Source: Parvularcula sp. (GTDB lineage: Bacteria > Pseudomonadota > Alphaproteobacteria > Caulobacterales > Parvularculaceae). From it: 63,171 nt of DNA. This document shows, in pieces, positions 39,044 through 59,143 of the stretch (positions within the stretch are counted from its first letter, which is position 1; every line of letters starts with the position of its first letter). Where the stretch lies: positions 71,689 to 134,859 of the forward strand of contig PAIP01000084.1 of the NCBI GenBank assembly GCA_002704915.1. The letters run 5' to 3'. The translations under genes were made by a program, and so were the position numbers. The notes beneath the pieces were generated by a model, which was not told where the DNA came from, searched no databases, and was given only the letters and a program-made list of their open reading frames with translations.

Positions 39044-39078
39044 TTGACGAAACGGGGCGCGCCATGTTGTGATCACAA
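39044..39078 (+). promoter_or_regulatory. Carboxylesterase promoter with TTGTGATCACAA operator
   Basis: TTGACG at 39044-39049 is followed after 17 bases by TTGTGA at 39067-39072. The 12-base perfect palindrome TTGTGATCACAA at 39067-39078 covers that -10 position. This is one of four promoter-region copies of GTGATCAC in the window and is probably a GntR-type operator. The remainder of the 338-base region to the tannase start (38839-39043) shows no gene. Confidence 0.65.
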
Positions 39079-39084
39079 GTACGA

Positions 39085-39136
39085 TCAGACATCTGAATGA
39101 ATGGGGTCTCCCGGTTTATAATCATCAGACGTCTGA
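39085..39136. repeat. Pair of TCAGA-NN-TCTGA palindromes 40 bp apart
   Basis: TCAGACATCTGA (39085-39096) and TCAGACGTCTGA (39125-39136) are two copies of the same 12-base dyad, centre to centre exactly 40 bases apart, in the 5' leader or promoter of the carboxylesterase operon. They look like a two-site operator for a second regulator. No matching regulator can be assigned. Confidence 0.5.
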
Positions 39137-39176
39137 GAATAGAAGACGACAGCGGCCGCACCGGGAGGGCGGAGAC

Positions 39177-40811
39177 GTGAAATCGGACAGGCGGACATTT
39201 TTGAACTCGTCTCTGGCGCTCGCCATGGGGCTCGCGGCTGGCTGCGGAAACGATGCCGCCGTCTCTTCTTCGCCAATTGCAAATACGCGCCATGGTCCGG
39301 TGGAGGGCCGTCTCGAGGAGGGCGTTTATGCGTTCAAGGGCGTGCGGTATGGCGCCGACACAGGAGGGCGGGGCCGTTTTATGCCGCCACGTCCGTCGCA
39401 ACCATGGACCGACCCGGCGCCCGCGCTCGAATACGGTCCGGCCTGCCCTCAATCGCGTCCGGCGAGCGGGCGTGAAATGCCCGAAGGCGAAAGCGAAGAC
39501 TGTCTGCATTTGAATGTGTGGACCCGCGGGCTGCGCGACGGGAAAAAACGCCCCGTTATGGTCTGGCTGCATGGCGGGGGCCTCTGGCGCCTTTCAGCCG
39601 CCGGCGCCTGGCAGGCAGGCCGCAATCTGAGCGCGCGCGGCGATGTGGTCATGGTCAGCCCGAACCACCGGATCAGCGTGCTCGGTTTTTCCCATTTCGG
39701 CGATATCAATCCGGATTATGAGGGATCGTCGCATGCCGGAATGCTCGACCTCATTCTCGCGCTTAAATGGGTTCAGGAGAATATCGAGGAGTTCGGCGGC
39801 GATCCGGACAATGTCACGATATTCGGCCAGTCCGGAGGCGGTCAAAAAGTCTCGCTGCTGATGGCGATGCCCGCTGCGAAAGGGCTTTTCCATAAGGCCG
39901 TCATTCAAAGCGGTCCGATGCCGCTCACCCTTGAGCGTGCTTACGCAAACGATCTTGCGTCGCGCTTCCTGGCGCGGCTGGACAATCCCGGCGCCGACGC
40001 GGATGCCTTGGCGCAGGCGCCGCTAAGCGACGTCATGAAGGCGTATTACGAAACTTTTGATGAGATCGGCGGATTTGGCGTCATGGGCATCGTGCAGGAT
40101 GTCGCGCCAGTGGTCGATGGCGACATTCTTCCTCAACAGCCCTTTTGGAATAGCGCGCCGGATGTTTCCAAGGACATTCCGCTCATTATCGGCTCCACGC
40201 GCACGGAGATGACGGAATACAATCTCATGGAAGACCCCGACGCCGCAGGCATGGATTTCAGCGGGGCCGCCACGCGTCTGAGGTCTATCTTTGGAGATGA
40301 CGCAGAGAAAATCCTGGCTCGCTACAGGGAAAACCATCCCGATGCGTCGGCCTGGGAAGTTTATGCATTGATCCGCTCGGATTGGCCGACGCGGCTTTTC
40401 TCCCTTCACATCGCCGACCGGAAACTGGAACAGGGCGGCGCGCCGGTATTTGTCTATCGCACCGACTGGGAAACACAGGACCGGGACGGGCTGCTGATGG
40501 CGCCGCACGCAATCGACATACAATTCGTTCTCGACACGGCTGATGCGACGGAGCCGCTAGGTCTGCAGGCCGCCGAACGCAAGATCATGACAGAATATAT
40601 GAGCGGCGCGTGGCTTTCTTTTGCGCGCAACGGCGCGCCGAAAGCGCCGGGCGGACCGGATTGGCCGCAATACTCGCTTCCTTCGCGCCCGACATTCATT
40701 TTCGACCTTGAATGCAGGATCGAAAATGATCCGGATGGAGACGATATCGCAATCCTGCGGGAGAATGCGAGCAGGTATCGGCTGGTCGCCGGAGGGATAA
40801 ACCAAGACTAG
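39177..40811 (+). CDS. Type B carboxylesterase, exported lipoprotein or Tat substrate
   Basis: A 544-residue alpha/beta-hydrolase of the carboxylesterase/cholinesterase family. I place the start at GTG 39177, right after GGAGGGCGGAG. The longer frame would begin inside the operator at 39067. The N-terminus KSDRRTFLNSSLALAMGLAAGC combines a twin-arginine-like motif with a lipobox cysteine. Ser219 in FGQSGGGQK is the nucleophile, EDCLHLNVWT is the family signature and His444 in MAPHAIDIQFV completes the triad. It probably removes an acyl group from the substrate taken up or presented by the next gene, a TonB receptor 60 bases downstream. Confidence 0.88.
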   Translation: MKSDRRTFLNSSLALAMGLAAGCGNDAAVSSSPIANTRHGPVEGRLEEGVYAFKGVRYGADTGGRGRFMPPRPSQPWTDPAPALEYGPACPQSRPASGREMPEGESEDCLHLNVWTRGLRDGKKRPVMVWLHGGGLWRLSAAGAWQAGRNLSARGDVVMVSPNHRISVLGFSHFGDINPDYEGSSHAGMLDLILALKWVQENIEEFGGDPDNVTIFGQSGGGQKVSLLMAMPAAKGLFHKAVIQSGPMPLTLERAYANDLASRFLARLDNPGADADALAQAPLSDVMKAYYETFDEIGGFGVMGIVQDVAPVVDGDILPQQPFWNSAPDVSKDIPLIIGSTRTEMTEYNLMEDPDAAGMDFSGAATRLRSIFGDDAEKILARYRENHPDASAWEVYALIRSDWPTRLFSLHIADRKLEQGGAPVFVYRTDWETQDRDGLLMAPHAIDIQFVLDTADATEPLGLQAAERKIMTEYMSGAWLSFARNGAPKAPGGPDWPQYSLPSRPTFIFDLECRIENDPDGDDIAILRENASRYRLVAGGINQD

Positions 40812-40870
40812 CAGCGGTCGCCAGGGATCTGACGTCGCTGAAGCAAGACCATAAAGTTGGAGGTGGAAAC

Positions 40871-43204
40871 ATGCGGTCTAAATACAAACTAAGCCTGATG
40901 TGCGCTGTGGCGGGGGCATCGTTTCATGGGGGCGCTATTGCGCAAGACGACGCTTTGGCCGGCGGTTATGACGATGAAATTGTCGTTACGGCGACCAAGC
41001 GCGCTGAAGGACTGAGTAAGGTTCCGCTCAGCATCGCCGCCTTTACGACAGAAATCATGGACCGCCGAGGCATCAGAGATGTCGAGGACATTGCGCTCAT
41101 TACGCCGGGTCTCAGCTTCAGCCGGGACAGTTTCGGCAATGGCTCCGCAACGAATATCGCGATCCGGGGCATCTCTTCCACATCGGGCGCTGCGACCACC
41201 GGCGTCTATATCGACGACGTCCCCATTCAAATCCGCTCCAATATTCAGGAAACATTCGGCTCCGGCTTTCCGAAAGTTTTTGATCTTGAGCGCATCGAAG
41301 TCCTGCGCGGGCCGCAGGGCACGCTTTACGGCGCAGGATCGCAAGGCGGCACCGTAAGGTTCATTACGCCTGAGCCCAGCTCAACGGAATTTTCCACTTA
41401 TGGACGCGGCGACGTCTCCCTGACGGCGCATGGCGATCCCAGCTATGAGGCGGGACTCGCCGTCAATTTCCCGCTCATCGAAGACAGGGTCGGTCTTCGG
41501 CTCAGCGGCTGGCGCCGGCATGAAGGCGGTTATGTGGATCGCGTGGTGACAAACACGGCGGTTCCCGACGGCGAAACTTTCGAGGACGCCAACAGCTCCA
41601 ATACAACGACCTTTCGCGCCGCTCTCGGGATTCAGGCCGCCGATAATTTGAAGCTCACGCCATCGGTTTATTATCAGAAATTCAAATCGAACGACACGGG
41701 AAGCTTTTGGGGCCTCTTGTCCGATGCCGACAAGGGCGAGTTCATCAACGGATCGTCTGTCCGCCAGCCGGTGGAGGATAAATTCTTTCTGTACGGTCTG
41801 ACGGGCGAGCTTGATCTCGGTCCGGCCACGGTCACGAGCGTTACATCCTATTTCGACCGCGAAGGTGAAGCGGTCCAGGACTATACGATGCTCAACATCG
41901 CATTCATCGCCGGCGCGCTTCCGCCTTATCCCTTTATTCCCGGCATGGAAGCGCCGGGCGATACCACGGTGAGTCAGGAGAATTTTACGCAAGAACTGAG
42001 GGTCAGCTCAAACGATCCTGGCGCGTTCATCGAGTGGACGCTTGGCGGCTTCTATTCGCATAACCGGCAAAAAAGCTCGGTTCAGGTCGAAGACCTTTTC
42101 GTTGAACAATACCTGCCGGTTCCGCTGGAGTTCATTTTCGGCATCGGGCTCACGGATGGGCGATACCTGTTTCTCTCCGGCAATAATTCGCTTGAAAAGC
42201 AGTGGGCGATTTTCGGCGAAGCCGATGTCAATTTCACAGAGCGTTTATCTCTGACCCTGGGATTGCGCTACAGCAAGGCAGATTTTGACTATACGCGCAC
42301 TGTCGGCGGGCCGATCAACTATCCGGGCTTCGGTCCGGATATCCAGTCCACTTTCGGCGATCAGTCTTCGGACCCGTTGACGCCGAAGATCGGGCTGAAT
42401 TTCCAGATCGACGACAATAATCTGGTTTACGCATCTGCATCGCAAGGCTTCCGAATCGGCGGTGTGAATCCGCCGCTGTTCAGGGACCCTCAGACTGGAG
42501 AGAGCTGCAGCAGCATCCCGGTGCCGGAATCTTACGGCCCGGACAGTCTCTGGAGTTATGAGCTCGGATCCAAGAACCGTTTTCTCGATGGCGCAGTGCG
42601 CACCGAAGCGAGCGTATACTATATCCAATGGGACGACATTCAGCAGTTCGTCAATCCGGGCGGATGCGCGGGGAATGGCTTCCGCGACAATCTCGGCAGC
42701 GCCACCAGCAAGGGATTTGAGTTTCTGACCAGCTTCGAGTTGACGGAAAACCTGCTCTTTACCGGGACCGTCGGTTATGTGAAGGCGACTTTCGATGATA
42801 CGCTAACGTCTCCGGCGGGCATTATTACGACAGAAGGCGACAGTCTCCCCGTAACCCCGTGGCAGATGTCGGCCGTGCTGGACTATTTCCGGCCCATCGG
42901 CGGTGCGGAGGGGTACTTCCACGCTGAACATCAATATGGCAGTCAGAATAACGGACAAAATGGGAGCCTGAACCCGAACAATATCGGGTACGATCCGGGC
43001 GCGTTGTTCGATCCGGCGGTTAACCAGACCAATCTCCGCATCGGCTGGCGTAATGAGGCATTCGATATTTCCCTTTACGCCAACAACGTCTTTGACGAGG
43101 CTCCGTTGCTGTCGCGCTATCATGATGTGAACGCTTCACCGCTTTACTACTTCCGCACGCTTCGTCCGCGTACGGTCGGATTGACCGTCACCTATCGCCG
43201 CTGA
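40871..43204 (+). CDS. TonB-dependent outer-membrane receptor
   Basis: A 777-residue receptor with a GGAGGTGG site before ATG 40871. The signal peptide ends at GGAIAQDD. The TonB-box region EIVVTATKRAEGLSKVPLSIAAF is followed by the plug with IAIRGISSTSGAATTGVYIDDVPI and RIEVLRGPQGTLYGAGSQGGTVRF. The barrel ends LRPRTVGLTVTYRR. It resembles the receptor at 56336 more than the one at 15278 (both have SGAATTGVYIDDVP / AGAATTGFYLDETP and GAGSxGGTVRFI). This suggests a common ligand class. It is cotranscribed with the esterase and the lignostilbene-dioxygenase-like gene (12-base gap). Confidence 0.93.
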   Translation: MRSKYKLSLMCAVAGASFHGGAIAQDDALAGGYDDEIVVTATKRAEGLSKVPLSIAAFTTEIMDRRGIRDVEDIALITPGLSFSRDSFGNGSATNIAIRGISSTSGAATTGVYIDDVPIQIRSNIQETFGSGFPKVFDLERIEVLRGPQGTLYGAGSQGGTVRFITPEPSSTEFSTYGRGDVSLTAHGDPSYEAGLAVNFPLIEDRVGLRLSGWRRHEGGYVDRVVTNTAVPDGETFEDANSSNTTTFRAALGIQAADNLKLTPSVYYQKFKSNDTGSFWGLLSDADKGEFINGSSVRQPVEDKFFLYGLTGELDLGPATVTSVTSYFDREGEAVQDYTMLNIAFIAGALPPYPFIPGMEAPGDTTVSQENFTQELRVSSNDPGAFIEWTLGGFYSHNRQKSSVQVEDLFVEQYLPVPLEFIFGIGLTDGRYLFLSGNNSLEKQWAIFGEADVNFTERLSLTLGLRYSKADFDYTRTVGGPINYPGFGPDIQSTFGDQSSDPLTPKIGLNFQIDDNNLVYASASQGFRIGGVNPPLFRDPQTGESCSSIPVPESYGPDSLWSYELGSKNRFLDGAVRTEASVYYIQWDDIQQFVNPGGCAGNGFRDNLGSATSKGFEFLTSFELTENLLFTGTVGYVKATFDDTLTSPAGIITTEGDSLPVTPWQMSAVLDYFRPIGGAEGYFHAEHQYGSQNNGQNGSLNPNNIGYDPGALFDPAVNQTNLRIGWRNEAFDISLYANNVFDEAPLLSRYHDVNASPLYYFRTLRPRTVGLTVTYRR

Positions 43205-43215
43205 AAGGCGAAGTA

Positions 43216-44658
43216 ATGACGCGCTTTCCTCAAAAGCCGGCGTTCACGGGCTTCAATACGCCCTTGCGCGCCGAAATAGACATCGTCGATGTTGAAACGG
43301 AGGGGGAGATCCCCTCCGCCCTTTCCGGAGCGTATTACAGGGCGCAGCCTGACCCCCAGTTTCCGCCGCGTCTAGGCGACGACATCCTCTTTAATGGGGA
43401 CGGGGCGATCTCGATGTTCCGTTTCGACGGTGGAAAGGTCGATTTCAAACACCGCTGGGCGCGCACGGACAAATTCCTTCTGGAACGGGAAGCTGGCGAA
43501 GCGCTCTTTGGCGCCTATCGCAACCCGTTAACGGACGACCCTTCCGTCAAGGGACGATATAGGGGAACGGCAAACACCAATGCGTTTCCGTTTGCCGGCA
43601 AATTATACGCGCTGAAAGAAGACAGCCCGCCTGTTCTGATGGATTTGGATACGCTCGAAACGCAAGGCTACACCACATTCGACGGCAAGATGACTGGCCA
43701 GACATTCACGGCGCACCCCAAAATCGATCCCGTGACCGGGAACATGGTTGCGTTTGGCTACGCTGCGCGTGGTCTCTGCACGCGCGACATGACCTATTAT
43801 GAGGTGGATCCGCAGGGGAGGCTGGCGTGCGAATCCTGGTTCGAATTGCCTTACTATTGCATGATGCATGATTTCGGCGTCACGCGCGATTATGCAGTTT
43901 TTCATGTGGCGCCGATCGTCGGCAGCATTGAAAGGCTTGAGAAAGGCTTGCCGCATTTTGGTTTCGATAGGTCCAAAGACGTCTATCTGGGCGTGATCCG
44001 CAGGGACGATCCCGATGCGAAACCGCGATGGTTCAAGACGGAAAACTGCTTTGCCAGCCATGTCATGAACGCATTCAATGAGGGCTCGAAAATTTACTTC
44101 GACACGCCCGTTGCAAAGAATAACATGTTCCCGTTCTTTCCGGATGTGGACGGGCATCCGTTCAATCCGGTTGACGCCCAGGCTTATCTCACTCGCTGGT
44201 GCGTTGACCTGAATGGAAATTCGGATGCGTTTTTCTCGAAAGAAGTAATTGGCCGCACGCCAGGAGAGTTTCCGCGCATTGACGACCGCTATGCAATGGC
44301 GGCGTACAGGCATGGCTATATGCTGGTGCAGGACTCCACAAAACCCGTCGATCCTGCGTGCAAAAGCATAACGGGCTTTGCAATGAACACCCTGTGCCAT
44401 GTCGATGTCGCCGCAGGCAAGGAGAGCACCTGGTTCGTAGGACCCTCAAGCGCATTGCAGGAACCCTGCTTTGTGCCGAGATCGGCCGATTCCGATGAGG
44501 GCGATGGCTGGGTTCTGACCTTGGCGCACCGCATCCTTGAAATGAGGACGGACCTCCTGGTGTTCGACGCCCAGCAGATCTCCGAAGGGCCGGTGGCGAC
44601 TATCAAGCTTCCTGTGCGGTTAAAATTCGGGCTGCACGGCAATTGGCATGCACATTGA
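43216..44658 (+). CDS. Carotenoid oxygenase family dioxygenase, lignostilbene dioxygenase-like
   Basis: A 480-residue non-heme iron dioxygenase that cleaves a central C=C bond with O2. The four iron-binding histidines can be placed in TAHPKIDP, CMMHDFGVT, FASHVMNAF and the C-terminal LHGNWHAH. The N-terminal PSALSGAYYRAQPDPQFPPRLGDDILFNGDGAISMFRF is typical of bacterial lignostilbene-alpha,beta-dioxygenases, which split stilbenes, resveratrol-like compounds and isoeugenol-type substrates to aromatic aldehydes. The following aldehyde dehydrogenase fits that product. No signal peptide, so the reaction is cytoplasmic. Whether the substrate is a stilbene or an apocarotenoid cannot be settled by reading, but the context favours aromatics. 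Confidence 0.88.
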   Translation: MTRFPQKPAFTGFNTPLRAEIDIVDVETEGEIPSALSGAYYRAQPDPQFPPRLGDDILFNGDGAISMFRFDGGKVDFKHRWARTDKFLLEREAGEALFGAYRNPLTDDPSVKGRYRGTANTNAFPFAGKLYALKEDSPPVLMDLDTLETQGYTTFDGKMTGQTFTAHPKIDPVTGNMVAFGYAARGLCTRDMTYYEVDPQGRLACESWFELPYYCMMHDFGVTRDYAVFHVAPIVGSIERLEKGLPHFGFDRSKDVYLGVIRRDDPDAKPRWFKTENCFASHVMNAFNEGSKIYFDTPVAKNNMFPFFPDVDGHPFNPVDAQAYLTRWCVDLNGNSDAFFSKEVIGRTPGEFPRIDDRYAMAAYRHGYMLVQDSTKPVDPACKSITGFAMNTLCHVDVAAGKESTWFVGPSSALQEPCFVPRSADSDEGDGWVLTLAHRILEMRTDLLVFDAQQISEGPVATIKLPVRLKFGLHGNWHAH

Positions 44659-44679
44659 GATACGGGCGAGAACGAAAAC

Positions 44680-46122
44680 GTGAGCAAAACTCAATATAAT
44701 GACCTTTATCTTGCGATCGGGGGAGAGCGGCGAAGCGGCGGGGCGCGAAACTCGATAGAGATTGTCAATCCCGGCACAGAAGAAACGCTTGGCGCGGTCC
44801 CGGCCGCAACGAAGGACGATCTTGAGGACGCCCTTGGAATCGCGGCTGAAGCCTGGGCCGGATGGAAAAGCCTTCCTGCGGGCGAACGCGGCGCGATTCT
44901 GGTTCGCACGGCGGCCTTGATACGGGAGCGGGCGGAAGAGATCGCTTTGCTGGCCACGCTGGAGTCGGGAAAGACGCTTGCCGAATCGAAAATCGAAACG
45001 GCGATGGCTGCAAACACCTTTCAGTGGTTTGGCGAAGAGGCGCGGCGGATTTACGGACGAAGCATCCAGGCGCATGGGGCAGGGCATCGCATGTATGTGC
45101 GCAAGGAGCCCGTGGGGCCGGTGGCGGCTTTCAGCCCGTGGAATTTTCCGATTGCAAACCCGGCGAGAAAGCTGGCGCCGGCGCTGGTGGCCGGATGTAC
45201 GATCATTCTGAAGCCGGCGGAGGAAACGCCGGCCAGCGCGCTCGCCGTATATCGATGTCTCGAAGACGCCGGGGCGCCCAAAGGCGTTGCGTCGATTGTA
45301 TTCGGCGATCCGGAATTGATATCGAGCGTTCTCATCAACTCGGATGCGATCAGGAAGATTTCATTCACGGGGTCCATTCCTGTGGGCCGACGCCTTGGCG
45401 CGCTCGCGGCGCAGGGCGGCAAGCTCTCCACAATGGAACTGGGCGGACATGCGCCGGTCATCATCGCCGCGGATGCAGATATGGAGAAGGCTGTATCGCT
45501 GACGGCCGCGTCCAAATACAGGAATGCTGGCCAAGTTTGCGTGTCGCCGACACGCTTTTATGTTGAAAGGCCTGTTTACGAACGCTTTGTCGACGCTTTC
45601 TCGAACTACGCCAAGGGTCTTGAAGTGGGCGAGGGAGCTAACCCGGAAAGCCAGATGGGGCCTTTGATCGCCGAGCGCCGCCGGCGGGCGGTCAGCGAGA
45701 TTGTCGCGGACGCCATCGAAAGCGGCGCGGAAGTGACGGCTGGCGGATCGGCGTTGGATCGGCCTGGTTATTTCTATCGGCCCACGGTCCTGGTCAATGC
45801 GCCGCATAAAGCCAGGGTCATGAGGGAAGAGCCGTTCGGTCCTGTGGCAGCAATCAATCCCGCAGACTCCCTTGAAGAAGCGGTGAGGGAGGCGAACGCC
45901 CTTCCTTATGGCCTTGCGGCTTATGGATTCACACAGTCCGCCCGAAACGCGCTATTCCTTGAGGAAAATCTCGAAGCGGGAATGGTCGGGGTAAACACAA
46001 CACGGATATCCGTTCCGGAATCGCCTTTTGGGGGCGTTAAAGATAGCGGTCACGGCTCAGAAGAAGGTATAGAGGGACTTGAAGCCTACCTGACCACGAA
46101 ATTTATCAGCAGTACAATTTAA
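44680..46122 (+). CDS. NAD(P)-dependent aldehyde dehydrogenase
   Basis: A 480-residue aldehyde dehydrogenase with GTG start at 44680, 22 bases after the dioxygenase. The catalytic cysteine is about residue 287 in NAGQVCVSPTRFYVE and the glutamate is in MELGGHAPVIIAADADMEK. PWNFPIANPARKLAPALVAG is the cofactor-binding region. It belongs to the SSADH/vanillin dehydrogenase-like group. By context it should oxidise the aldehyde made by double-bond cleavage to an acid, which the next gene product may decarboxylate (inference). It is distinct from gabD at 28795. Confidence 0.88.
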   Translation: MSKTQYNDLYLAIGGERRSGGARNSIEIVNPGTEETLGAVPAATKDDLEDALGIAAEAWAGWKSLPAGERGAILVRTAALIRERAEEIALLATLESGKTLAESKIETAMAANTFQWFGEEARRIYGRSIQAHGAGHRMYVRKEPVGPVAAFSPWNFPIANPARKLAPALVAGCTIILKPAEETPASALAVYRCLEDAGAPKGVASIVFGDPELISSVLINSDAIRKISFTGSIPVGRRLGALAAQGGKLSTMELGGHAPVIIAADADMEKAVSLTAASKYRNAGQVCVSPTRFYVERPVYERFVDAFSNYAKGLEVGEGANPESQMGPLIAERRRRAVSEIVADAIESGAEVTAGGSALDRPGYFYRPTVLVNAPHKARVMREEPFGPVAAINPADSLEEAVREANALPYGLAAYGFTQSARNALFLEENLEAGMVGVNTTRISVPESPFGGVKDSGHGSEEGIEGLEAYLTTKFISSTI

Positions 46123-46140: not shown

Positions 46141-47198
46141 ATGACCAATCCGGAATATCCGCTGCAGACTGGCGGAGGCAGAGGGTATCTGCGCATTGCG
46201 ACGGAAGAAGCATTTTGTCCGCCGCCGCTGATGCGCCGTTTTCTTCAGGTTCTCGAAGACAAGTCGATAGACGATCCCGGCTTTTACAGCCTTTGGGGAT
46301 TTTACGGCGGAGAGAGTGAGCGCGCCCGCCTGCTGAGGGAGCGGATTCAGGATCTCGATGAATTGCGCATTCGTGACATGGACGCCACGGGAATAGACAG
46401 GCAGATCATTTCCATCACCTGTCCGGGCGTGCAGATGTTTCCTGCCGAGGAGGCTGTCGGCATGGCGCAAGACGCCAATGACGCCTTGTCCGAGGCGGTG
46501 AAAAAACATCCCGACCGGTTCGCCGGTCTGAGACCATTGCACCGCAGGCGCCGGACAAGGCTGCTAAGGAAATTCAGCGCGGCGCGACGCAGCTTGGATT
46601 CAAGGGCGTCATCGTTAATTCGCACACGCAAAATCGTTATCTCGACGATCCGTATTTCTCGCCAATTCTGGAGGCGGCGGAAGCCTGCGGCGCGCCGCTC
46701 TATATCCATCCCAATACGCCATCGAAACAATTAATTCCGGCCTTTATAGATCGTGGTCTGGACGGCGCCATTTATGGCTTCGGCGTTGAGACAGGTTTGC
46801 ATTTGCTGCGGATGATTGCGGCCGGCATCTTCGACAGATACCCCAACCTGAAAGTGGTTGTGGGGCATTTGGGCGAAGCGCTGCCATTCTGGATGAAACG
46901 CATTGATTTCATGCACGGCGCCTCGGTTGCGTCCGGAAGAACCGGCACGCGGCGTCTCGACCGTAAGCCAAGCGAATACTTCCAAAGCAACATATACATT
47001 ACGACGAGCGGCATGCCCTGGGAGGACGCAATCATGTATTGTTTGAAAGTCCTAGGCGCAGAACGCGTAATGTATGCAATGGACTATCCGTATCAATATA
47101 TGGCGGACGAAGTGCGCGAGCAGGACAATCTTCCCATTTCCTTGCATGACAAGAAGAAGTTTTTTCAAACCAACGCCGAAGAGGTTTTTAATCTCTGA
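46141..47198 (+). pseudogene. Frameshifted amidohydrolase-2 family enzyme (decarboxylase type)
   Basis: The first frame gives a good N-terminal half (YLRIATEEAFCPPPLMRRF, MDATGIDRQIISITCPGVQMF, KKHPDRFAGL) to about 46530, then turns to arginine-rich nonsense. The correct sequence resumes in another frame at about 46533 (TIAPQAPDKAAKEIQRGA, GFKGVIVNSHTQNRYLDDPYF, PLYIHPNTP, VVGHLGEALPFWMKRID, YAMDYPYQY) and runs to a stop at 47198. One missing base in the first ten or so bases after 46520 explains it. The rest of the gene is undamaged, so the change is recent or a sequencing error. The family includes gamma-resorcylate and 5-carboxyvanillate decarboxylases. The N-terminal metal motif is EEA instead of the usual ExH. 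Confidence 0.82.
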
Positions 47199-48694: not shown

Positions 48695-48831
48695 GCGCAG
48701 GTTTCGCTTGGGGTGGGGGGCAATCGCTGAAGAAGCCTGGCGCGCTCCACTCGCCGGGATTGCCGTCTATATGTGAACAGACCGGCTTTTGCTGCGGTCG
48801 GGCATGTGGACCCGGTCATTTGCCCAAAAAA

Positions 48832-48839
48832 GTGATCAC
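48832..48839. promoter_or_regulatory. GTGATCAC half-palindrome site upstream of exported DUF3237 gene
   Basis: AAAAGTGATCACAAAG at 48828-48843 contains the eight-base core GTGATCAC, with the right flank AA of the other sites but not the left TT. It lies about 85 bases before the start at 48921. No strong -35/-10 pair is visible. The 226-base region from 48695 has no gene and no clear terminator. Confidence 0.5.
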
Positions 48840-48920
48840 AAAGCTGGATATTCATTATTGATTGGGGCGTGCAAACTCAGCATGTTTTGGCCTTTGCCAT
48901 GAGGGAACCGGAGGGGAGCA

Positions 48921-50270: not shown

Positions 50271-50299
50271 TTGACCAGCGCCCAACCATCGCATAATGT
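50271..50299 (+). promoter_or_regulatory. Promoter of the glutamine-synthetase-like gene
   Basis: TTGACC at 50271-50276, a 17-base spacer and TAATGT at 50294-50299 make a near-consensus sigma-70 promoter. Transcription would begin around 50306, giving a leader of about 25 bases before GTG 50331. The -10 box lies inside the palindrome described next. Confidence 0.7.
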
Positions 50300-50322
50300 G
50301 ATCACATTATGCGATGGTTGGG
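50281..50322. promoter_or_regulatory. Perfect 42-bp palindrome with GTGATCAC core, candidate operator
   Basis: Bases 50281-50322 are a perfect palindrome of two 21-base arms with no spacer, centred between 50301 and 50302. The inner 20 bases are CATAATGTGATCACATTATG; the outer arms end CCCAACC and GGTTGGG. The core matches the sites at 39067, 48832 and 58867. It overlaps the -10 box and probable start of the rightward promoter and faces the gntR gene on the left. Confidence 0.8.
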
Positions 50323-50330
50323 GCTGTTTC

Positions 50331-51674: not shown

Positions 51675-52975
51675 ATGCGCCCGTTAAATTGAGGCAGGCC
51701 TATGCGGACATGCCGACTTACTACGCTGCCACCGCAAATCCCGCGCGGGAGCGCCCGGTCTTGCGCGGTGATCATCGGTGCGACGTTTGTGTGATTGGAG
51801 CCGGTTTCTCCGGCATGTCGGCGGCGCTTGAGCTTGCTGAGCGCGGTTATGACGTCATCGTCGTTGAGGCGCGCCGCGTCGGCTGGGGGGCTTCGGGCCG
51901 GAATGGCGGGCAACTCGTCAATGGCTACAGCCGAAGTCTTTCTGAAGTCAGAAAGCATTATGGCGAACAAGCTGAACGCGACTTTGGCGCTATGGCGTTG
52001 GAGGGCGCCGGCATCATTCGCGAGCGCGTAAAAAAATACAATATTGAGTGCGATCTAAGAGACGGAAACGCGATTGTCGCCATGCACCAGGCGCATATGC
52101 GTTTTTTGCGGGAGAGGGTCGCCGAATGGCGGCGACACGGTCATGACAGCGTTCGACTTCTCGAAAAGGAAGAAGTCAAGTCTGCGGTCAACAGCGAGCG
52201 TTACGTCGGCGGCTATCTCGATCCGCTGGGCGGGCACATGCATTCGCTGAACTATGTGCTGGGCGAAGCGGCGGCGTTTGAAAATCTGGGCGGCAAAATT
52301 TTTGAAAATTCCCGCGTTGAGCATGTAGACCGGTCTGACAAACCATTCGTTCAATCGGATGGCGGCAGGGTGTTTGCTGAAAAACTGCTGATTTGCGGCA
52401 ATGCTTATCTTGGCGACGAGGTCGGGGATCTTTCGTCTCGGGTCTTGTCGGTATCAAGCCAGATCATCGGCACTGAGGTTCTGGGCGAAGATGTGGTTAA
52501 TGACCTTATTCCCGCCAACTGCGCCGTCGAGGATGCGCGCTACATACCGGATTATTACCGGCGGACCGCGGACCATCGCATCATTTATGGCGGCGGTTCG
52601 GTGTATGGCGGCGGTGATCCGGCAAGTATTGTGGACAAGATTCGCCCGCAGATGCTGCTGACTTTTCCGGAACTGAAAAACGCAAGGATAGATTTTGCCT
52701 GGAGCGGCAACTTTGCGCTGACTATGACGCGCTATCCGCAGATGGGGAGGCTGTCGCCAAGCGTTTATTATTCGCAGGGCGATAGCGGCCACGGCGTTAC
52801 GACGACCCAAATGCTGGGAAAGCGATTGGTGGAAGCGATCGACGGTCAGTTAACGAAGTTCGACGTGTTCGCTTCGCTCAGGGATATTCCTTTCGTGGGC
52901 GGCAAGGTTTTTCGCGTGCCTTATTGTGTGCTCGGTTCCTGGTATTACGGTTTAAGAGACAGGCTGGGCCTTTAG
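51671..52975 (+). CDS. FAD-dependent amine/amino acid oxidoreductase, PuuB-like
   Basis: A 434-residue DAO-fold flavoprotein. The FAD-binding motif is CDVCVIGAGFSGMSAALELAERGYDVIVVEARRVGWGASGRNGGQLVNGYS at residues 38-90. The C-terminus includes YSQGDSGHGVTTTQMLGKRLVEAIDGQ. The GASGRNGGQ motif is typical of gamma-glutamylputrescine oxidase and related amine oxidases, which release an aldehyde, ammonia and hydrogen peroxide. It overlaps the ligase stop by four bases, so the two are coupled, supporting a gamma-glutamylated amine as substrate. The aldehyde could then be handled by the dehydrogenase at 44680 or by gabD (inference). Confidence 0.88.
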   Translation: MNAPVKLRQAYADMPTYYAATANPARERPVLRGDHRCDVCVIGAGFSGMSAALELAERGYDVIVVEARRVGWGASGRNGGQLVNGYSRSLSEVRKHYGEQAERDFGAMALEGAGIIRERVKKYNIECDLRDGNAIVAMHQAHMRFLRERVAEWRRHGHDSVRLLEKEEVKSAVNSERYVGGYLDPLGGHMHSLNYVLGEAAAFENLGGKIFENSRVEHVDRSDKPFVQSDGGRVFAEKLLICGNAYLGDEVGDLSSRVLSVSSQIIGTEVLGEDVVNDLIPANCAVEDARYIPDYYRRTADHRIIYGGGSVYGGGDPASIVDKIRPQMLLTFPELKNARIDFAWSGNFALTMTRYPQMGRLSPSVYYSQGDSGHGVTTTQMLGKRLVEAIDGQLTKFDVFASLRDIPFVGGKVFRVPYCVLGSWYYGLRDRLGL

Positions 52976-53044
52976 GGATTGTTACCGAGTGGCGCATTCG
53001 GAGGTTGCGACTGGCTGCTTTGTATTGTCTGAACGGAGAAAATC

Positions 53045-53191: not shown

Positions 53192-53193
53192 AT

Positions 53194-54354
53194 ATGGCAG
53201 GAGCACAGCCGCTAAAAGGTCTGAAAGTCGTCGAACTGGCGAGAATTCTGGCAGGGCCCTGGGCCGGACAGATATTCGCCGATCTCGGATGCGAGGTCAT
53301 TAAAGTCGAAAGTCTGGCAGGGGATGACACGCGCCAGTGGGGGCCGCCTTTCATCGATAATCGCGACGGAACGAAAGACGCTGCTTACTTCCACGCTTGC
53401 AACCGGGGTAAAAGCAGCATTACGGCCGATTTCAGGAACGCGCAGGACCTCGCAAGCGTAAAGAAGCTGATCGCGGAAGCAGACATCGTTATTGAAAATT
53501 TCAAGGTCGGGGGGCTGGAACAGTTCGGGCTCGATTACGATACGCTGAGTAAAGATCACCCCAGATTGATTTACTGTTCGATCACCGGTTTCGGCCAGGA
53601 TGGTCCGTATAAAGAGAGAGCTGGATACGATTTTATCATCCAAGGCATGAGCGGGATGATGGATCTCACCGGCGACCCTGAAGGGGAGCCGCAGAAAATC
53701 GGCGTTGCGCTTGCCGACATCATCGCCGGCCTTTACGCAACAATCGGCATTCAGTCAGCGATCATCGAGAGAGAGCGAACCGGGCTTGGCGTTTATATCG
53801 ATGTCGCGCTTCTGGATTCCATGGTTGGCGTCCTTGCAAATCAGGCGATGAACTATCTTCTCACCGGTCATCCGCCGCAGCGCATGGGCAACGCACATCC
53901 GAATATTTGTCCTTATGAGGTTTTCCCTGCCGCAGACGGCCACTTTGTTCTTGCGGTAGGCAATGACAGGCAGTTCCGGCGGCTGTGCGAGATCATTGAG
54001 CAACCGCAATTGAGCGATGATCCCCGTTTTTCGACGAACGCCGCCCGGGTTGAGCACAGGGAAGCCTTGCGAGCCTTGCTGGAGGCGCGTTTCGTCCATC
54101 TTGGCTGCGCCGAAATACTTCGCCTTTGCGAAGAGCAAGGCGTGCCGGCCGGCCGCATCAACAATCTCGAAGAGGTTTTTGAAGATCCGCAAGTCAAGGC
54201 GCGCCAACTGATATTGGATTTGCCCGGCGGTGTCCGCGGCGTGCGCACGCCCATCAATTACAATGGAAAGCGGCTTTTCGCCGACGGGGCGTCCCCGAAA
54301 CTGGGAAGCGCCAATGCGCCGCCTGGAAGATCGATCGACGAACCGGAGACTTAA
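53194..54354 (+). CDS. Class III CoA-transferase (CaiB/Frc family)
   Basis: A 386-residue family III CoA-transferase, which moves CoA between acids without a free energy cost. Motifs: LKGLKVVELARILAGPWAGQIFADLGCEVIKVESLAGDDTRQWGPPF at the N-terminus, NRGKSSITADFRN, IENFKVGGLEQFGLDYD, CSITGFGQDGPYKERAGYDFIIQGMSGMMDLTG, and the catalytic aspartate at about residue 175 in VALADIIAGLYA. Context suggests activation of an organic acid produced by the oxidase or dehydrogenases to its CoA ester before ring or chain degradation. The CoA donor and acceptor are unknown. Confidence 0.9.
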   Translation: MAGAQPLKGLKVVELARILAGPWAGQIFADLGCEVIKVESLAGDDTRQWGPPFIDNRDGTKDAAYFHACNRGKSSITADFRNAQDLASVKKLIAEADIVIENFKVGGLEQFGLDYDTLSKDHPRLIYCSITGFGQDGPYKERAGYDFIIQGMSGMMDLTGDPEGEPQKIGVALADIIAGLYATIGIQSAIIERERTGLGVYIDVALLDSMVGVLANQAMNYLLTGHPPQRMGNAHPNICPYEVFPAADGHFVLAVGNDRQFRRLCEIIEQPQLSDDPRFSTNAARVEHREALRALLEARFVHLGCAEILRLCEEQGVPAGRINNLEEVFEDPQVKARQLILDLPGGVRGVRTPINYNGKRLFADGASPKLGSANAPPGRSIDEPET

Positions 54355-54374
54355 TAGGAAGGAAAGGGACTATC

Positions 54375-56222
54375 ATGGCGAATGCGATCAGGCGGAGTTT
54401 GCTGACCCATATGGCGGGCGCAACCATTTTCGTCGCGGCGCTGACCGGGTGCGGCGGCGACAATAATGGCGCAGAACCGGCAAGCGACATGGAAACCGCT
54501 GCCGATACGGTGTTTACCAACGGCAAGATTTACACGGTCGATGGCGCCAATCGCGTTGTCGAAGCGATCGCCATCAAGGAAGGGAAGATTGCAGCGCTTG
54601 GCGGCGATGAAGAAATCGGCGATTTCGTAGCTGCTTCGACGCAGGTGATCGATCTTGATGGCCGGATGCTCATGCCGGGTCTTATCGACGCGCATATGCA
54701 TCCGTTGGGCGCGGGAAATATGCTCACCACCTGTTCCCTTAGATATGAATCGCTCACCGTCGACGAGATCCTCTCAAGGATAACGAGCTGCCTTGAAGCC
54801 GAGCCCGATGCGGCGCCTGACAAATGGCTGCATGTGCAGGCCTGGTTCAGGCAGGCGACGAAACCCGAAGGCGCGGATCTTTCGGCCGAAATTCTCGACC
54901 GCTTGCTGACCGACCGGCCGGTGATTGTCATGGCCAATGATTATCACACGCTTGCCGCCAACAGCGCCGCAATGCGCGCGGCGGGCATCGACGAGGAAAC
55001 CGCAGATCCCGCCGGCGGAAAAATCGTTCGGGATGAAGGCGGAGTGGCGACGGGAATATTCCTCGACGCCGCCATGGGCGTTGTGGCGCAGGCTGAACCC
55101 CCATTGCCTGAGAAAGAACAAGAAGCGAAAAACCTGAAAGACCTCAGCGCCGCGCTTGTGGCGCTCAACGAGCAAGGCGTGACCACCATGTTCGATGCGG
55201 CCGGGTCGGAAAGCAGCATGAAAGCCGCGGCGCGCCTGCGCGACGAAGGCGAACTCAGCGTTCGCTCCGTGATTTCCATCGTGGCTTCGCCTGACGCGGC
55301 GAAGGCGCCGAAGGAGGTCGTGGCGACACTTAAAGAGCTCAGCGGGCGCTATAATACTCCAGTCGAAGCGCAAGCGCCGGGCATTACAGTTGACCGTGCG
55401 AAAATGTTCGTAGACGGCGTCATTCAGGCGCCGGCGCAAACAGGCGCCTTGCATGAGCCTTATCTCCACAATACGGGAACCGCCGAAAATCCAGTTTGGG
55501 AGTCCGGCGACAATTCCGGATCGCTCTATTACGATGAGGCGTTGTTAACGGGCATGCTCGATGAATTGGTGTCGAACGGGCTTAGCGCGCATATGCATAC
55601 GGATGGTGACAAGGCGGTCACCGTGGCGCTGGACGCTATCGAGACAGTGCGTGCGAAACATAATTCGCCTGCCTATTTTCGTCCGGGACTTGCCCATGAT
55701 GAGCTGCTCATACCTGCCGACTATCCGCGATTTTCGGAGTTGAACGCCATTCCCGTATTATCTTTACAATGGGGCAAGCCGGCGCCGGATACGATCGACT
55801 CTGTGAAGAATCAGATTGGTCCTGAACGATTTCCCTATCTTGAGACGGCAGGCAAATTTCAGGAAGCCGGGGCCCGCGTCGCCTTCGGCAGCGATTGGCC
55901 GGTGGAGGCGCTCGACGAGTGGCGCGCTATGCAGATTGGCGTGACACGCAGCAACCCGGATGCCGTCGATCCGAAATATCAGGGCCGCCTCGGTGACGAT
56001 CCGGGCCTCGATGTCGAAACCGCAATACGCGCTTTCACGATCAATGCAGCCTATTCGTTGAACATGGAAGACTATGTAGGCTCGTTGGAGGAGGGAAAAT
56101 TTGCAGACCTCATAGTTATCGATCGGGACATCACGGCCGTTCCTGCGGAAACGATCGCTGAAACGAAAGTTCTCATGACCATGATCGGGGGCAAAGAAGT
56201 CTACCGCGCCGATTCGTTCTGA
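54375..56222 (+). CDS. Lipoprotein amidohydrolase, YtcJ-like (amidohydrolase 3)
   Basis: A 615-residue metal-dependent hydrolase anchored as a lipoprotein: the N-terminus ATIFVAALTGCGGDNNG has a lipobox with the cysteine near residue 26. The catalytic fold shows GLIDAHMHPLGAGN (HxH), KMFVDGVIQAPAQTG (probable lysine), LSAHMHTDGDKAVTVALDAIE and FGSDWPVEALDEWRAMQ (Asp). This is the YtcJ/NfdA-type group, which includes N-substituted formamide deformylase; most members lack a known substrate. A periplasmic or outer-membrane-facing amide hydrolase would suit processing of an incoming amide. It begins 21 bases after the CoA-transferase and ends before a strong terminator. Confidence 0.87.
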   Translation: MANAIRRSLLTHMAGATIFVAALTGCGGDNNGAEPASDMETAADTVFTNGKIYTVDGANRVVEAIAIKEGKIAALGGDEEIGDFVAASTQVIDLDGRMLMPGLIDAHMHPLGAGNMLTTCSLRYESLTVDEILSRITSCLEAEPDAAPDKWLHVQAWFRQATKPEGADLSAEILDRLLTDRPVIVMANDYHTLAANSAAMRAAGIDEETADPAGGKIVRDEGGVATGIFLDAAMGVVAQAEPPLPEKEQEAKNLKDLSAALVALNEQGVTTMFDAAGSESSMKAAARLRDEGELSVRSVISIVASPDAAKAPKEVVATLKELSGRYNTPVEAQAPGITVDRAKMFVDGVIQAPAQTGALHEPYLHNTGTAENPVWESGDNSGSLYYDEALLTGMLDELVSNGLSAHMHTDGDKAVTVALDAIETVRAKHNSPAYFRPGLAHDELLIPADYPRFSELNAIPVLSLQWGKPAPDTIDSVKNQIGPERFPYLETAGKFQEAGARVAFGSDWPVEALDEWRAMQIGVTRSNPDAVDPKYQGRLGDDPGLDVETAIRAFTINAAYSLNMEDYVGSLEEGKFADLIVIDRDITAVPAETIAETKVLMTMIGGKEVYRADSF

Positions 56223-56260
56223 TGCGGCTGGCCTTAAGCGTTCACGTGGAGAGCGCAACA

Positions 56261-56295
56261 AAATAACCCGGCGGCCAGAAGCCGCCGGGTTATTT
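56261..56295. terminator. Bidirectional rho-independent terminator
   Basis: A perfect 15-base stem AAATAACCCGGCGGC (56261-56275) with GCCGCCGGGTTATTT (56281-56295), a five-base loop CAGAA, and T/A tracts on both sides. It lies between convergent genes (amidohydrolase from the left, TonB receptor from the right) and ends both transcripts. Confidence 0.95.
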
Positions 56296-56335
56296 TTACG
56301 ATCATGAAAACGCCGATTTGCCGATTGCGACGCGC

Positions 56336-58696
56336 TTAATTGAAATCGTATTTAAGCGCTGCGCCGATGGTGCGCGGACGCAAGGTGCGGATAAGCAGGA
56401 TCGGACTGCCGCCGAATACGCGCGTCTTGCCAAGCTCAGGCGTTTCGTTTGTCAGGTTTTCTGCAAAGAGCGAGAGGGAAACGGCGCCTAATCTCACGCC
56501 GAGCCGGCCGGAGAGCTGGGTGACGGCTTCCGCGTCCCGGATTTCCGCGTCAGCGCCGACAACGCCGTCCGGCCCGGTGCGTTCATACTTCCCGGCATGG
56601 CTTACGGAGATATTGCCGAATGTGTCGACGCCGGCAATCTGGCCGTCATAAAACAGGGTGGCGCTTCCGTTGAGCTTCGGAACGCCGAGCTCCTGATCTT
56701 TTTGGACCAGTGTTTGACCGTAATCGTCCATGACCGTTTCGCTGTAACGGCCGTCGGCATATCCTGCCGTAATCGATGCGGTGAAACTGTCCGTTAGTTG
56801 AACGCCGAGTTCGACATCGAAACCGTCGACTTTGGCGTCGCCAAGATTGTCTGTGTAAACATTCAGACAAGTCGGCAAGGTAATGGCGCCCTGTATGTCT
56901 TTCCAGTCGATATGAAACCCGCTCACATTCAGGTTGACGCGGCCCTCGGCAAGACGGTTTTTGCTGCCGACCTCGTAGCTCCAAAGCTGATCCGAATTGA
57001 ATTCGGTCGGATTGGAGCCGCCGGGCAGATCCGGCGCGCAGGTCGTGCTGACGCTGTAATCCGGATTGGTGCCGCCGATTCTAAAGCCTTTGGCCGCGGA
57101 CGCATAAAGCGTATGATTTTCGCTGGGCTCATAATTGATATTGAACTTCGGAGAGATGGGCGTCTCGCTTTGCGTGCCGATGGCTGACGTTTCGCCGCCA
57201 ACCCAAAACCCGTTCTGCACCTGGCTTGCCTGGAATTTCGTGCGCGAAATGCGAACGCCCGCCGAAGCGCTGAGTTGCTCGGTGAAATTGTAGGTCAGGT
57301 TGGCGAAGCCTGCGACTTCGCTTTCGACGTTATCGACTGTGTCAAAATAAGAGACAGGCAAGCCGAGCTCATCGGACAGGGGCCCTTGAAAAACGATATC
57401 GTCAATCGGGAACCCTAGCGTATTTATCGATTCCGCGTTTATGTCCTGATACTCATGACGAATGCGTTCATACTCGCTGCGTTGGTAGTAGAAGCCCGCG
57501 ATCCAGGAGAGTTTCGAATCGCCAGTGTCATTCGAGAAAAAGCGTATTTCCTGGGAATACGCTTTTTGATCGGTGGACCAATACATATGACCCACAAAAT
57601 CGTCAGTAAGAACCGCGGGTTCAAAGGGGACCATGAAGACTTCTGAGCGAATTCCCCCAAGGATGAAGGGCAGGGATGCTCCATCGGAATCGGTCCAGTC
57701 ATTGATCTGGGAAAAATCGCGATTGATAAAAGACGATACGCTCTTCACGGAGAAGGCGCCGAAATCATAATCTGCGGTCAGATTTGCAACCAGATACTCG
57801 TCATCTTCCGGTTGCGCACGGTCCGTGAAGGTGTTGTTGAGGCCGGCGTCGGCCCAGTAAAGGTCCATATCGTCTGCTTCGGTCTTCTGGTAGAAGACCG
57901 AAGGGCTAATGGAGAATTCGTCCGAGACCTGAAATAGGAGTGCAAGACGCGCAGCAATGGTTTGCGTGTCGTTGACATCGTCCTCAACGACTGCGCCGGT
58001 ATCTCTGTCGTGCCTGTCAATCCAGCCGGCCTCGTCGCGGTAATAGAAGCCCGCACGAAACGCAACGCGGTCATTGACGAGCGGGGCCCCGCCATAAATT
58101 GAGAATTGCGGCGTGACGCCGCCATCATCGGTCTTGGCGACCTCGGCGTTCAAGGTTGCGGACGCTTCGGTCAGATCCGGTTGCGTTTGTATAAAGCGCA
58201 CCGTGCCTCCCATGGAGCCGGCGCCATAGAGCGTTCCCTGCGGCCCGCGCAGAATTTCGACACGGTCGAGGTCGAAAACCACAGGCACAACCGCCGGGCT
58301 GAAGATTGTCGTGGGCTGTTGCAGCGGCGTTTCGTCCAGGTAAAAGCCGGTTGTCGCGGCGCCTGCCGTGGGGGCGATGCCGCGTATGGAAACAGTTTGC
58401 CCGCCGAACCCCCCGGACTGATCGAGCGTCAGGCCCGGCGTGACAAGGCTGATGTCCTCAAGGTTGCGGAGCGTTCGCTCTTCGAGCGTTTCGCCGCTGT
58501 AAGCCGCGATGCTGATGGGAACATCGAGGGCGCTTTCGGAGCGTTTCTGGGCGGTGACGACGATTTCGTCCAAGCCGCGCGTCGTGCGTCCGGCGGCTGT
58601 GTCTTGTTGTGCGTAAGCCGCCGTTATGGGCGCGCTCATGCAGCTTCCCATCAGAAGCGCCAAAGTTATGGTTTTGCGTTGAGAGATGACAGGCAT
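56336..58696 (-). CDS. TonB-dependent outer-membrane receptor
   Basis: A 786-residue receptor from ATG 58696, which has AAGGGGA eight bases upstream; a longer start at 58732 is less likely. The signal peptide ends ...ITAAYAQQD. The plug includes EIVVTAQKRSESALDVPISIAAYSGETLEERTLRNLEDISLVTPGLTLDQSG, VSIRGIAPTAGAATTGFYLDETPLQ and RVEILRGPQGTLYGAGSMGGTVRFIQTQP. The barrel ends LRPRTIGAALKYDFN. The structure is close to the receptor at 40871. It faces the terminator at 56261 and has a promoter that contains TTGTGATCACAA. It therefore probably belongs to the same regulon as the carboxylesterase and ligase. Confidence 0.93.
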   Translation of the reverse strand: MPVISQRKTITLALLMGSCMSAPITAAYAQQDTAAGRTTRGLDEIVVTAQKRSESALDVPISIAAYSGETLEERTLRNLEDISLVTPGLTLDQSGGFGGQTVSIRGIAPTAGAATTGFYLDETPLQQPTTIFSPAVVPVVFDLDRVEILRGPQGTLYGAGSMGGTVRFIQTQPDLTEASATLNAEVAKTDDGGVTPQFSIYGGAPLVNDRVAFRAGFYYRDEAGWIDRHDRDTGAVVEDDVNDTQTIAARLALLFQVSDEFSISPSVFYQKTEADDMDLYWADAGLNNTFTDRAQPEDDEYLVANLTADYDFGAFSVKSVSSFINRDFSQINDWTDSDGASLPFILGGIRSEVFMVPFEPAVLTDDFVGHMYWSTDQKAYSQEIRFFSNDTGDSKLSWIAGFYYQRSEYERIRHEYQDINAESINTLGFPIDDIVFQGPLSDELGLPVSYFDTVDNVESEVAGFANLTYNFTEQLSASAGVRISRTKFQASQVQNGFWVGGETSAIGTQSETPISPKFNINYEPSENHTLYASAAKGFRIGGTNPDYSVSTTCAPDLPGGSNPTEFNSDQLWSYEVGSKNRLAEGRVNLNVSGFHIDWKDIQGAITLPTCLNVYTDNLGDAKVDGFDVELGVQLTDSFTASITAGYADGRYSETVMDDYGQTLVQKDQELGVPKLNGSATLFYDGQIAGVDTFGNISVSHAGKYERTGPDGVVGADAEIRDAEAVTQLSGRLGVRLGAVSLSLFAENLTNETPELGKTRVFGGSPILLIRTLRPRTIGAALKYDFN

Positions 58697-59143
58697 ACTT
58701 AAAATCCCCTTTTGAGTTCCGTCGCGCCGCAAATGCTTTGGGCGGCCTTGATTGACGCACAGTGATTTCCCGCCAGCCCGCAGGGCGAGGCATGGCTAAA
58801 AAGTCACCGATTGACGCTTTTTCGGCGGCAGGCCGACCCTCCGATTGCCTCCAAGACAATGGTATATTGTGATCACAAAATTGACAATGTTTTGGAATTG
58901 TGACGGGATGATGGTTCCGTTCTCCGTCCAAAAACGCGCTGTATGCAGAAAAAACAAAGTAAATCAATGCTTTATGAAATGATGGCGCGCCAGTCAAAGC
59001 TTGGCTGCGTCAAAAATGTGATCTCTCTATGCGTTGTTTTTGAGGCACACTATGGGGATCACTTGCGGCGACAGCCACGTCAATCAAACTGAAGTCGCCG
59101 ACTGTGCTCATCTCATCCACATAAAGAGGAAAGCGAAGCCATC
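58697..59143. other. Divergent intergenic region between TonB receptor and APC permease
   Basis: No gene is visible in these 447 bases. They contain the minus-strand promoter and GTGATCAC operator described at 58859-58887. Nearer to the permease are two partial copies of the site: TGTGATCTC near 59018 and GGGATCACTT near 59054. These may make the permease a weaker member of the same regulon. Confidence 0.45.
58859..58887 (-). promoter_or_regulatory. Promoter of TonB receptor with TTGTGATCACAA operator
   Basis: On the minus strand TTGTCA (58887-58882) is followed, after exactly 17 bases, by TACCAT (58864-58859). The perfect 12-base palindrome TTGTGATCACAA at 58867-58878 lies between the two boxes, where a bound repressor would block RNA polymerase. 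It is identical to the site at 39067. Confidence 0.7.

Follow-up and report, generated by a model that had tools for sequence, protein, structure and literature searches.

A GntR/FCD regulator and a conserved palindromic motif predicted to control gamma-glutamyl-type amine catabolism in Parvularcula sp.

The stretch of DNA considered here, which we call the window, comprises 63,171 nucleotides of a Parvularcula sp. genome (assembly GCA_002704915.1, contig PAIP01000084.1) and carries a palindromic 8-mer, GTGATCAC, in four gaps between genes around a GntR-type regulator gene. By Pfam, the regulator (49473-50207, minus strand) is a member of the GntR superfamily and its FadR/FCD subfamily, with a GntR winged helix (PF00392, 57.5 bits, cut-off 27) and a C-terminal FCD domain (PF07729, 48.5 bits, cut-off 24.3); it is the proposed operator-binding protein. 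Divergent from it, on the plus strand, are genes for a glutamine-synthetase-like ligase of the gamma-glutamylamine synthetase type (50331-51674; Pfam Gln-synt_C, GTG start at 50331 after GGGG) and a DAO-family oxidase (51602-52975; Pfam DAO, 224.6 bits) that uses flavin adenine dinucleotide (FAD) and is probably of the amine or gamma-glutamylamine oxidase type. Farther right, on the minus strand, is a gene for a TonB-dependent receptor (receptor 2, 56336-58696, ATG at 58696), and on the left are an operon headed by a carboxylesterase gene and a separate DUF3237 gene. The gene families are as an initial annotation, made from the sequence alone, had named them; the dioxygenase of the left operon can now be specified as the lignostilbene type, the ligase as glutamine-synthetase-like, and the oxidase as DAO-type.

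An exact count gives four copies of GTGATCAC in the window, at 39069-39076, 48832-48839, 50298-50305, and 58869-58876, and no fifth exact copy in the whole 63 kb, as had been read by eye. All four copies are intergenic once the gene starts are assigned by inspection of the sequence (GTG at 39177, ATG at 48921, GTG at 50331, and minus-strand ATG at 58696), and each forms the core of a predicted operator. Operators 1 (39067-39078) and 4 (58867-58878) share the full 12-base TTGTGATCACAA, as first reported, and these are its only two copies in the 4,497,611-base genome assembly. Operator 1 lies 98 bp 5' of the carboxylesterase start and also falls between that gene and a divergent tannase-family gene, and operator 4 lies 170 bp 5' of the receptor 2 gene. 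Operator 3 (ATGTGATCACAT, 50296-50307) is in the gap between gntR and the ligase gene, about 25 bp from the ligase start and 90 bp from gntR. Operator 2 (AAGTGATCACAA, 48830-48841), 79 bp 5' of the DUF3237 gene, is predicted to be the weakest; its inner-flank A is also found at the gntR sites of three loci (L069, L070, and L172).

How unusual is this arrangement? In shuffled versions of the window, GTGATCAC occurs a mean of 0.59 times, and at least four copies arise in 1 of 100 shuffles. The genome holds 59 copies, however, and 4 of 59 fall within some 19.8-kb span in 11% of 2,000 random-placement simulations, so the cluster of 8-mers by itself is weak evidence. All four window copies are intergenic, compared with 7 of 47 elsewhere (Fisher p = 0.0013, an after-the-fact test covering the 51 of 59 genome copies that a simple codon-usage score, with no gene finder, sorted into intergenic and coding). 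Two of those seven belong to a second gntR cluster, on contig C29 of the same genome. A flanked pattern, WTGTGATCACRW, drawn up after many of its sites had been seen, matches the 4.5-Mb genome at five positions, of which the window holds three and the C29 cluster the other two; the 48832 site fails it, and the variant flank of that site, AAGTGATCAC, recurs beside gntR in three other loci. The initial annotation had asked whether the motif is equally common in random intergenic DNA of the genome, and the confinement of WTGTGATCACRW to the two gntR clusters answers in favor of a regulon. Seven FCD-regulator genes were found in the genome, and the fetched 3-kb stretch contains GTGATCAC for two of them, both of this group. 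The C29 paralogue is 34% identical to the window regulator; both sites in its cluster read ATGTGATCACGT, and the three strong window sites have the symmetric form TGTGATCACA. The C29 cluster itself (L041, G000:C29:24500-44400) contains gntR, ligases, an aminotransferase, an oxidase, a TPR-sulfotransferase, and a TonB receptor.

Two of the three sites that had been placed on recognizable promoters proved to be so placed in a promoter scan; the third, at 39067, is taken up below. The 58867 site takes up the spacer between the two boxes of a promoter on the minus strand (TTGTCA-17-TACCAT), and the 50298 site lies on the gntR promoter (minus strand, TTCACG-18-CATAAT). No promoter was found by the scan at the 48832 site. 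The earlier reading had missed that the 50298 site is the center of a perfect, loop-free palindrome of 42 bp (50281-50322), found by an inverted-repeat search. This palindrome holds mirror-image, -10-like CATAAT boxes at 50292-50297 (plus strand) and 50306-50311 (minus strand), both of which abut GTGATCAC. On the plus strand, CATAAT pairs with TTGACC (50271-50276) across a short 15-bp spacer, as read by eye and not scored.

The association of motif and regulator extends to other genomes. With the window regulator as query, we searched 100 relatives (20 genomes matched), 348 genomes of the order (67 matched; these tallies include its own genome), and 385 genomes of the class (9 at E ≤ 1e-42, own genome included), and scored 68 loci for a copy of GTGATCAC no more than 350 bp upstream of gntR. 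L036, the neighbor copy in the L039 locus, was left out of these counts and of the tree described below, and L169 and L170, which have a stop inside the regulator frame, were counted by match position. The motif is present at 6 of the 9 loci with the closest homologues (8 genomes, 42 to 49% identity), at 10 of 11 loci of the window's own family (f1), and at 5 of 6 loci from other named genera. Pooled, these three groups have it at 21 of 26 loci, and the next commonest palindromic 8-mer at 4. At two of the 26, L074 (Kordiimonas sediminis) and L179, GTGATCAC heads the operon that contains gntR. The regulators most like that of the window (49% identity), L172 and L174, share its layout, with gntR, a divergent ligase gene, and the motif between them; the mechanical start of the L174 ligase overlaps the motif site. 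When the f1 regulators were used as queries over named genomes, 18 loci were found, and 13 of these (at least 52% identity) have GTGATCAC 169 to 327 bp upstream, 8 apparently already in the f1 count and 5 new. Carriers include Parvularculaceae, Marinicaulis flavus, Hyphomonas, Erythrobacter, and Kordiimonas aquimaris. A search of the contigs of named genomes found no close relative of the window regulator itself.

In a tree of 60 regulators, which excludes the closest homologues L163 to L171, motif presence requires 4 changes, compared with 18.5 when the labels are shuffled. The recognition helix follows the motif in part: none of the 25 regulators with RDALSRL or of the 7 with RDAVWRL has the motif close to its gene, and the helices of the 23 carriers are of other kinds, chiefly P.RE[AS] or RDAVRRL. 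The rule is one-sided, because 5 non-carriers also have P.REA. Across the 56 collected sites, GT-GATC-AC is present in all by construction, the flanks are A/T-rich, and the next outer position is T in 86%. Ten f1 genomes with the regulator have 31 WTGTGATCACRW sites, 23 of them within the fetched gntR stretches; the other 8 (0.8 per genome) occur at about the same frequency as in 30 regulator-free f1 genomes (26 sites). Because WTGTGATCACRW was derived from many of the same sites, this tally describes specificity and is no fresh test. The number of TGTGATCACA sites across the f1 genomes, 20 in the 6 with the regulator versus 29 in the 30 without (Mann-Whitney p = 0.004), is only suggestive of a tie between motif and regulator, and one genome, G005, has the regulator but no TGTGATCACA site. 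A reversed-pattern control is poor because reversal creates CTAG, which is usually rare in genomes.

What do these regulators control? Judged by gene family, the common theme of the targets in relatives is gamma-glutamylation-type amine catabolism, which was absent from the initial annotation. Ligases (one or two) are found in 9 of the 10 f1 gntR clusters opened, a DAO oxidase in 8, and an amidohydrolase of family 3 in 9, while a second motif copy lies 5' of a TonB receptor in 8. Three f1 clusters have an APC permease that is 63 to 67% identical to that of the window. L041 also encodes a class III aminotransferase by Pfam, with homologues in other f1 clusters, and aldehyde dehydrogenase genes are also among the gntR neighbors of f1 relatives; one cluster, L059 (G014), is an exception with different genes. 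The window oxidase is 50 to 52% identical to the gntR-adjacent oxidases of L173 and L174. Four genomes of family f109 have gntR apart from the amine-type genes; the motif is more frequent there, with 5 to 14 WTGTGATCACRW sites in each and 37 in total. We opened eight f109 stretches, picked by site coordinates and covering 13 of the 37 sites, which were located independently of where gntR lies. Nine of the 13 precede ligase pairs, class III aminotransferases, an aldehyde dehydrogenase, or an arginase-family or nitrilase-family gene; of the remaining four, two lie between convergent genes, one is at an outer-membrane efflux gene, and one is at an unknown gene. The f109 sites could be bound by another GntR protein, such as an AkgR, and these stretches (L190-L197) perhaps represent a wider in-trans regulon, maybe of an AkgR-like protein. 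The motif is thus conserved both beside the regulator group and before amine-type genes.

The gamma-glutamylation pathways of Escherichia coli (Puu) and Pseudomonas (Pau/Spu) follow a logic of ligase, FAD oxidase, aldehyde dehydrogenase, and aminotransferase, and the E. coli Puu regulator is PuuR, which is no GntR protein. The window resembles the Puu type in having a ligase that adjoins an FAD oxidase, whose substrate is putative. It differs in that a TonB receptor and aromatic genes adjoin, and the ligases and one scanned dehydrogenase (from f109, with PuuC as its best match) fall below the NCBIfam cut-offs. For the window ligase, matches to the NCBIfam GGputSyn and type III ligase models are below cut-off, and as a gamma-glutamylputrescine synthetase it scores 196.4 bits against the 650 of NF045547. 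Because all six ligases scanned fall below the cut-off for gamma-glutamylputrescine synthetase, we keep the enzyme names general.

The pairing of this motif with a GntR-like regulator is already known. As described in the accessible part of PMC6365646, GTGATCAC lies at -47 to -40 of the gntR-like gene PS417_07240 of Pseudomonas simiae, with similar sites in homologues, and it is also among the binding sites of AkgR in Rhodobacter sphaeroides. An undescribed motif, which we had considered, was therefore dropped. The window regulator agrees with the PS417_07240/AkgR group in having GTGATCAC shortly before its own gene. The targets differ from the amine genes here: the same excerpt of PMC6365646 assigns PS417_07240 to deoxyribonate catabolism, and a cited title links AkgR to central carbon and energy metabolism. 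Our literature search, of incomplete coverage, found no paper joining GTGATCAC to amine genes and no printed instance of TTGTGATCACAA; the further published occurrences of GTGATCAC, and the one checked instance of TGTGATCACA, are primers in the portions of text available. The initial annotation had supposed that its regulon was not described before. This stands for the amine-type targets and for the gene set of the window, which are new, but not for the pair of palindrome and regulator.

Where does the regulator fall among characterized GntR proteins? By profile, its best solved relative is McbR (4p9f, E = 2.6e-42), of the McbR/YncC branch; E. coli K-12 McbR sites seem to include ATATAT, to judge from an extract of PMC13343897. 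The motif appears to conform to the palindromic GntR operator consensus NyGTNxACNy, given in the available section of PMC4494728. According to that section, the gap from GT to AC is 3 nt (2 nt in certain groups) for operators of the FadR subfamily and 4 nt for those of the HutC subfamily (PMC4494728). With 4 nt, the window motif GT-GATC-AC would combine HutC-like spacing with an FCD protein and departs from the 2 to 3 nt that are usual, though not obligatory, in the FadR subfamily. A useful comparison is Atu1419 of Agrobacterium fabrum, a VanR-type FCD repressor of hydroxycinnamate degradation, whose short palindromes likewise overlap or lie between -10 and -35 boxes, at least in the part of PMC7797058 available. 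It differs in its operator (ATGTATACAT, GT-N2-AC) and in its target genes, and it acts as a tetramer with DNA loops (same part of PMC7797058).

The best explanation overall, to which we assign a probability of roughly 80%, is that the GntR protein binds the motif and controls gamma-glutamyl-type amine catabolism, a prediction made from sequence comparison. The GntR/FCD protein would be a local amine-catabolic regulator with the palindrome WTGTGATCACAW as its binding site, where it presumably sits as a dimer. At 50298, a single dimer placed between the -10 boxes of the divergent gntR and ligase/oxidase promoters would affect both; because the 42-bp palindrome has CATAAT on both strands, it would cover both start regions. 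At 58867, a dimer would sit between the -35 and -10 boxes of the TonB receptor promoter. Repression would be relieved by an amine, or by its gamma-glutamyl or acid product, and the receptor, permease, gamma-glutamyl ligase, and FAD oxidase would then be made together. The 39067 and 48832 copies would add the esterase/lignostilbene-dioxygenase operon and the DUF3237 gene in this genome. Binding, repression, ligand, and substrate are thus what we infer, repression because operators 3 and 4 occupy the usual places of a repressor. Footprinting in several genera supports the single regulon that the initial annotation had proposed, as far as gntR, the ligase operon, and the TonB receptor are concerned.

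Could the same regulator and sites instead work by activation? AkgR is called an activator in the accessible text (PMC6365646), so repression should not be assumed, and operator 1, which is not overlapped by a strong promoter, would fit an activator site. Activation at some or all promoters is a possibility that we take seriously without favoring it, since the positions of operators 3 and 4, on promoter boxes or between them, are those usual for repressors. It is also conceivable, though unlikely, that the C29 paralogue binds all six sites and the window GntR binds something else. The C29 protein falls in the clade whose motif is the most uniform (14 of 14 tree rows), and cross-talk could readily arise between two regulators that share a motif; however, the closest homologues of the window regulator, which lie outside the tree, mostly have the site 5' of their own gntR, L172 and L174 have the same ligase neighbor, and the difference between ATGTGATCACGT and TGTGATCACA hints at a partition.

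A different kind of explanation would make the 42-bp palindrome mainly an RNA hairpin, a terminator or attenuator, and the region does have a very stable fold (50271-50360, -44.9 kcal/mol, z = -6.6) that was flagged as terminator-like. We regard this as improbable. The palindrome lies upstream of both genes, with the conserved operator exactly at its center and two -10-like boxes, and a transcript beginning after either box would carry one arm only. The gntR-ligase gaps of L172 and L174 keep the operator without the long palindrome (by eye), although L172 (site 4378) has a stretch, GTGATCACATTATGCGA, in common with its right half. The motif also resembles TGTGA/TCACA, the half-sites of CRP-like activators, but it has no 6-bp spacer between half-sites, it is tied to one GntR group and absent from the stretches of the other five FCD genes, and only 5 flanked sites exist genome-wide; a site for such another factor is very improbable. 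Chance clustering of the 8-mer is more improbable still. Counts alone leave the 11% of random placements noted above, but all four copies are intergenic, the 12-mer is unique to the window, and the motif is conserved beside homologous regulators, and on this conservation we rejected chance. Taken site by site, a chance origin is unlikely for 50298 and 58867, which have a conserved layout, and possible for 48832.

Several observations weigh against regulation of amine catabolism by the window GntR protein through this motif, or narrow its reach. The upstream motif is missing from all 42 loci outside the three motif-bearing groups: 0 of 6 in genus g18 of family f3, 0 of 32 among f4 and other f3 loci, and 0 of 4 in Brucella/Rhizobiales. 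In g18, a copy lies instead 37 to 220 bp past the gntR 3' end, and at L045, the only one of these loci examined more widely, it is followed by an aldehyde dehydrogenase gene. The f4 loci include 22 (L135-L156) whose regulators, with the helix RDALSRL, are 39 to 46% identical to that of the window and are without GTGATCAC upstream, so the motif cannot be predicted from homology alone. Even among the 9 closest homologues, 3 are without GTGATCAC within 350 bp upstream, and for 2 none was seen in the operon. The window regulator is itself a long branch (31 to 37% identical to 14 aligned relatives), and because of such long branches its tree position is unsure. The after-the-fact origin of WTGTGATCACRW belongs here as well. 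Two further points bear on the left operon: the promoter scan found no promoter over the 39067 site, which has no recognizable -10 box, contrary to the earlier placement on one; and at 9 other lignostilbene-dioxygenase loci (5 genomes, own included) no GTGATCAC copy was judged intergenic by eye. Three copies occur at those loci: two lie within matched genes at L131, and the third, at L127, is flanked by C/G.

The left operon, on the plus strand, comprises genes for a carboxylesterase (39177-40811; twin-arginine or lipoprotein-like start by eye), TonB-dependent receptor 1 (40871-43204, profile match), a lignostilbene-alpha,beta-dioxygenase (43216-44658; NCBIfam equivalog NF053778, 816.5 bits, cut-off 800), an aldehyde dehydrogenase (44680-46122, profile match), an amidohydrolase-2 in two reading frames (46141-47198, in parts 46141-46734 and 46797-47198), and an MFS transporter (47258-48694, profile match). 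Genes of these kinds look suited to breaking down aromatic compounds from plants. Both amidohydrolase-2 parts are matched at L127 to L129 and L131, and the split in the window is a frameshift or assembly error. The DUF3237 gene follows (48921-49505, plus strand; signal-like N terminus by eye). The links of the 39067 operon and of the DUF3237 gene to the regulon are seen in this genome only. Because of the exact 12-mer and its position, control of the esterase/dioxygenase operon by the GntR protein is likely, but as a link particular to this genome. Near operator 1, a TATAAT at 39117 is bracketed by two copies of another palindrome, TCAGACRTCTGA (39085-39096 and 39125-39136), which are spaced by 40 bp; these are the only copies of TCAGACRTCTGA genome-wide. 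Because these paired copies occur near operator 1 and nowhere else, a second regulator of the left operon is possible.

On the right, the ligase/oxidase operon probably continues with a CoA-transferase of family III (53194-54354, plus strand), followed by an amidohydrolase of family 3 (54375-56222, plus strand), the family shared with the f1 clusters. The APC-family amino acid/amine permease (59144-60544, plus strand) has a degenerate motif copy, TGTGATCTCT, 117 bp 5' of it at 59017-59026, which may be a weak half-site. Elsewhere in the window, a perfect 22-bp inverted repeat with a 10-bp gap lies between two genes (34212-34265).

It is tempting to connect the two halves of the window through the degradation of amine-aromatic conjugates (phenolamides or lignanamides, e.g., hydroxycinnamoyl-tyramine or -polyamine dimers), with the FCD regulator sensing the amine and switching both halves on. 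The TonB receptors and esterases would take in and cut the conjugate, the lignostilbene dioxygenase and its partners would take the aromatic half, and the ligase/oxidase operon would take the amine half, in keeping with the apparent use of GTGATCAC by this regulator group for amine genes in many Alphaproteobacteria. We consider this scheme speculative and rather doubtful. More broadly, the published pairing of GTGATCAC with gntR would be extended to gamma-glutamyl-type amine catabolism in the Parvularculaceae, Kordiimonadaceae, Hyphomonas, Erythrobacter, and other Alphaproteobacteria. This gives a testable list of targets, as well as material on GntR-DNA specificity through the comparison of recognition helix and motif. 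If the left operon is truly co-controlled, one signal would link the catabolism of lignin-like aromatics to that of amines.

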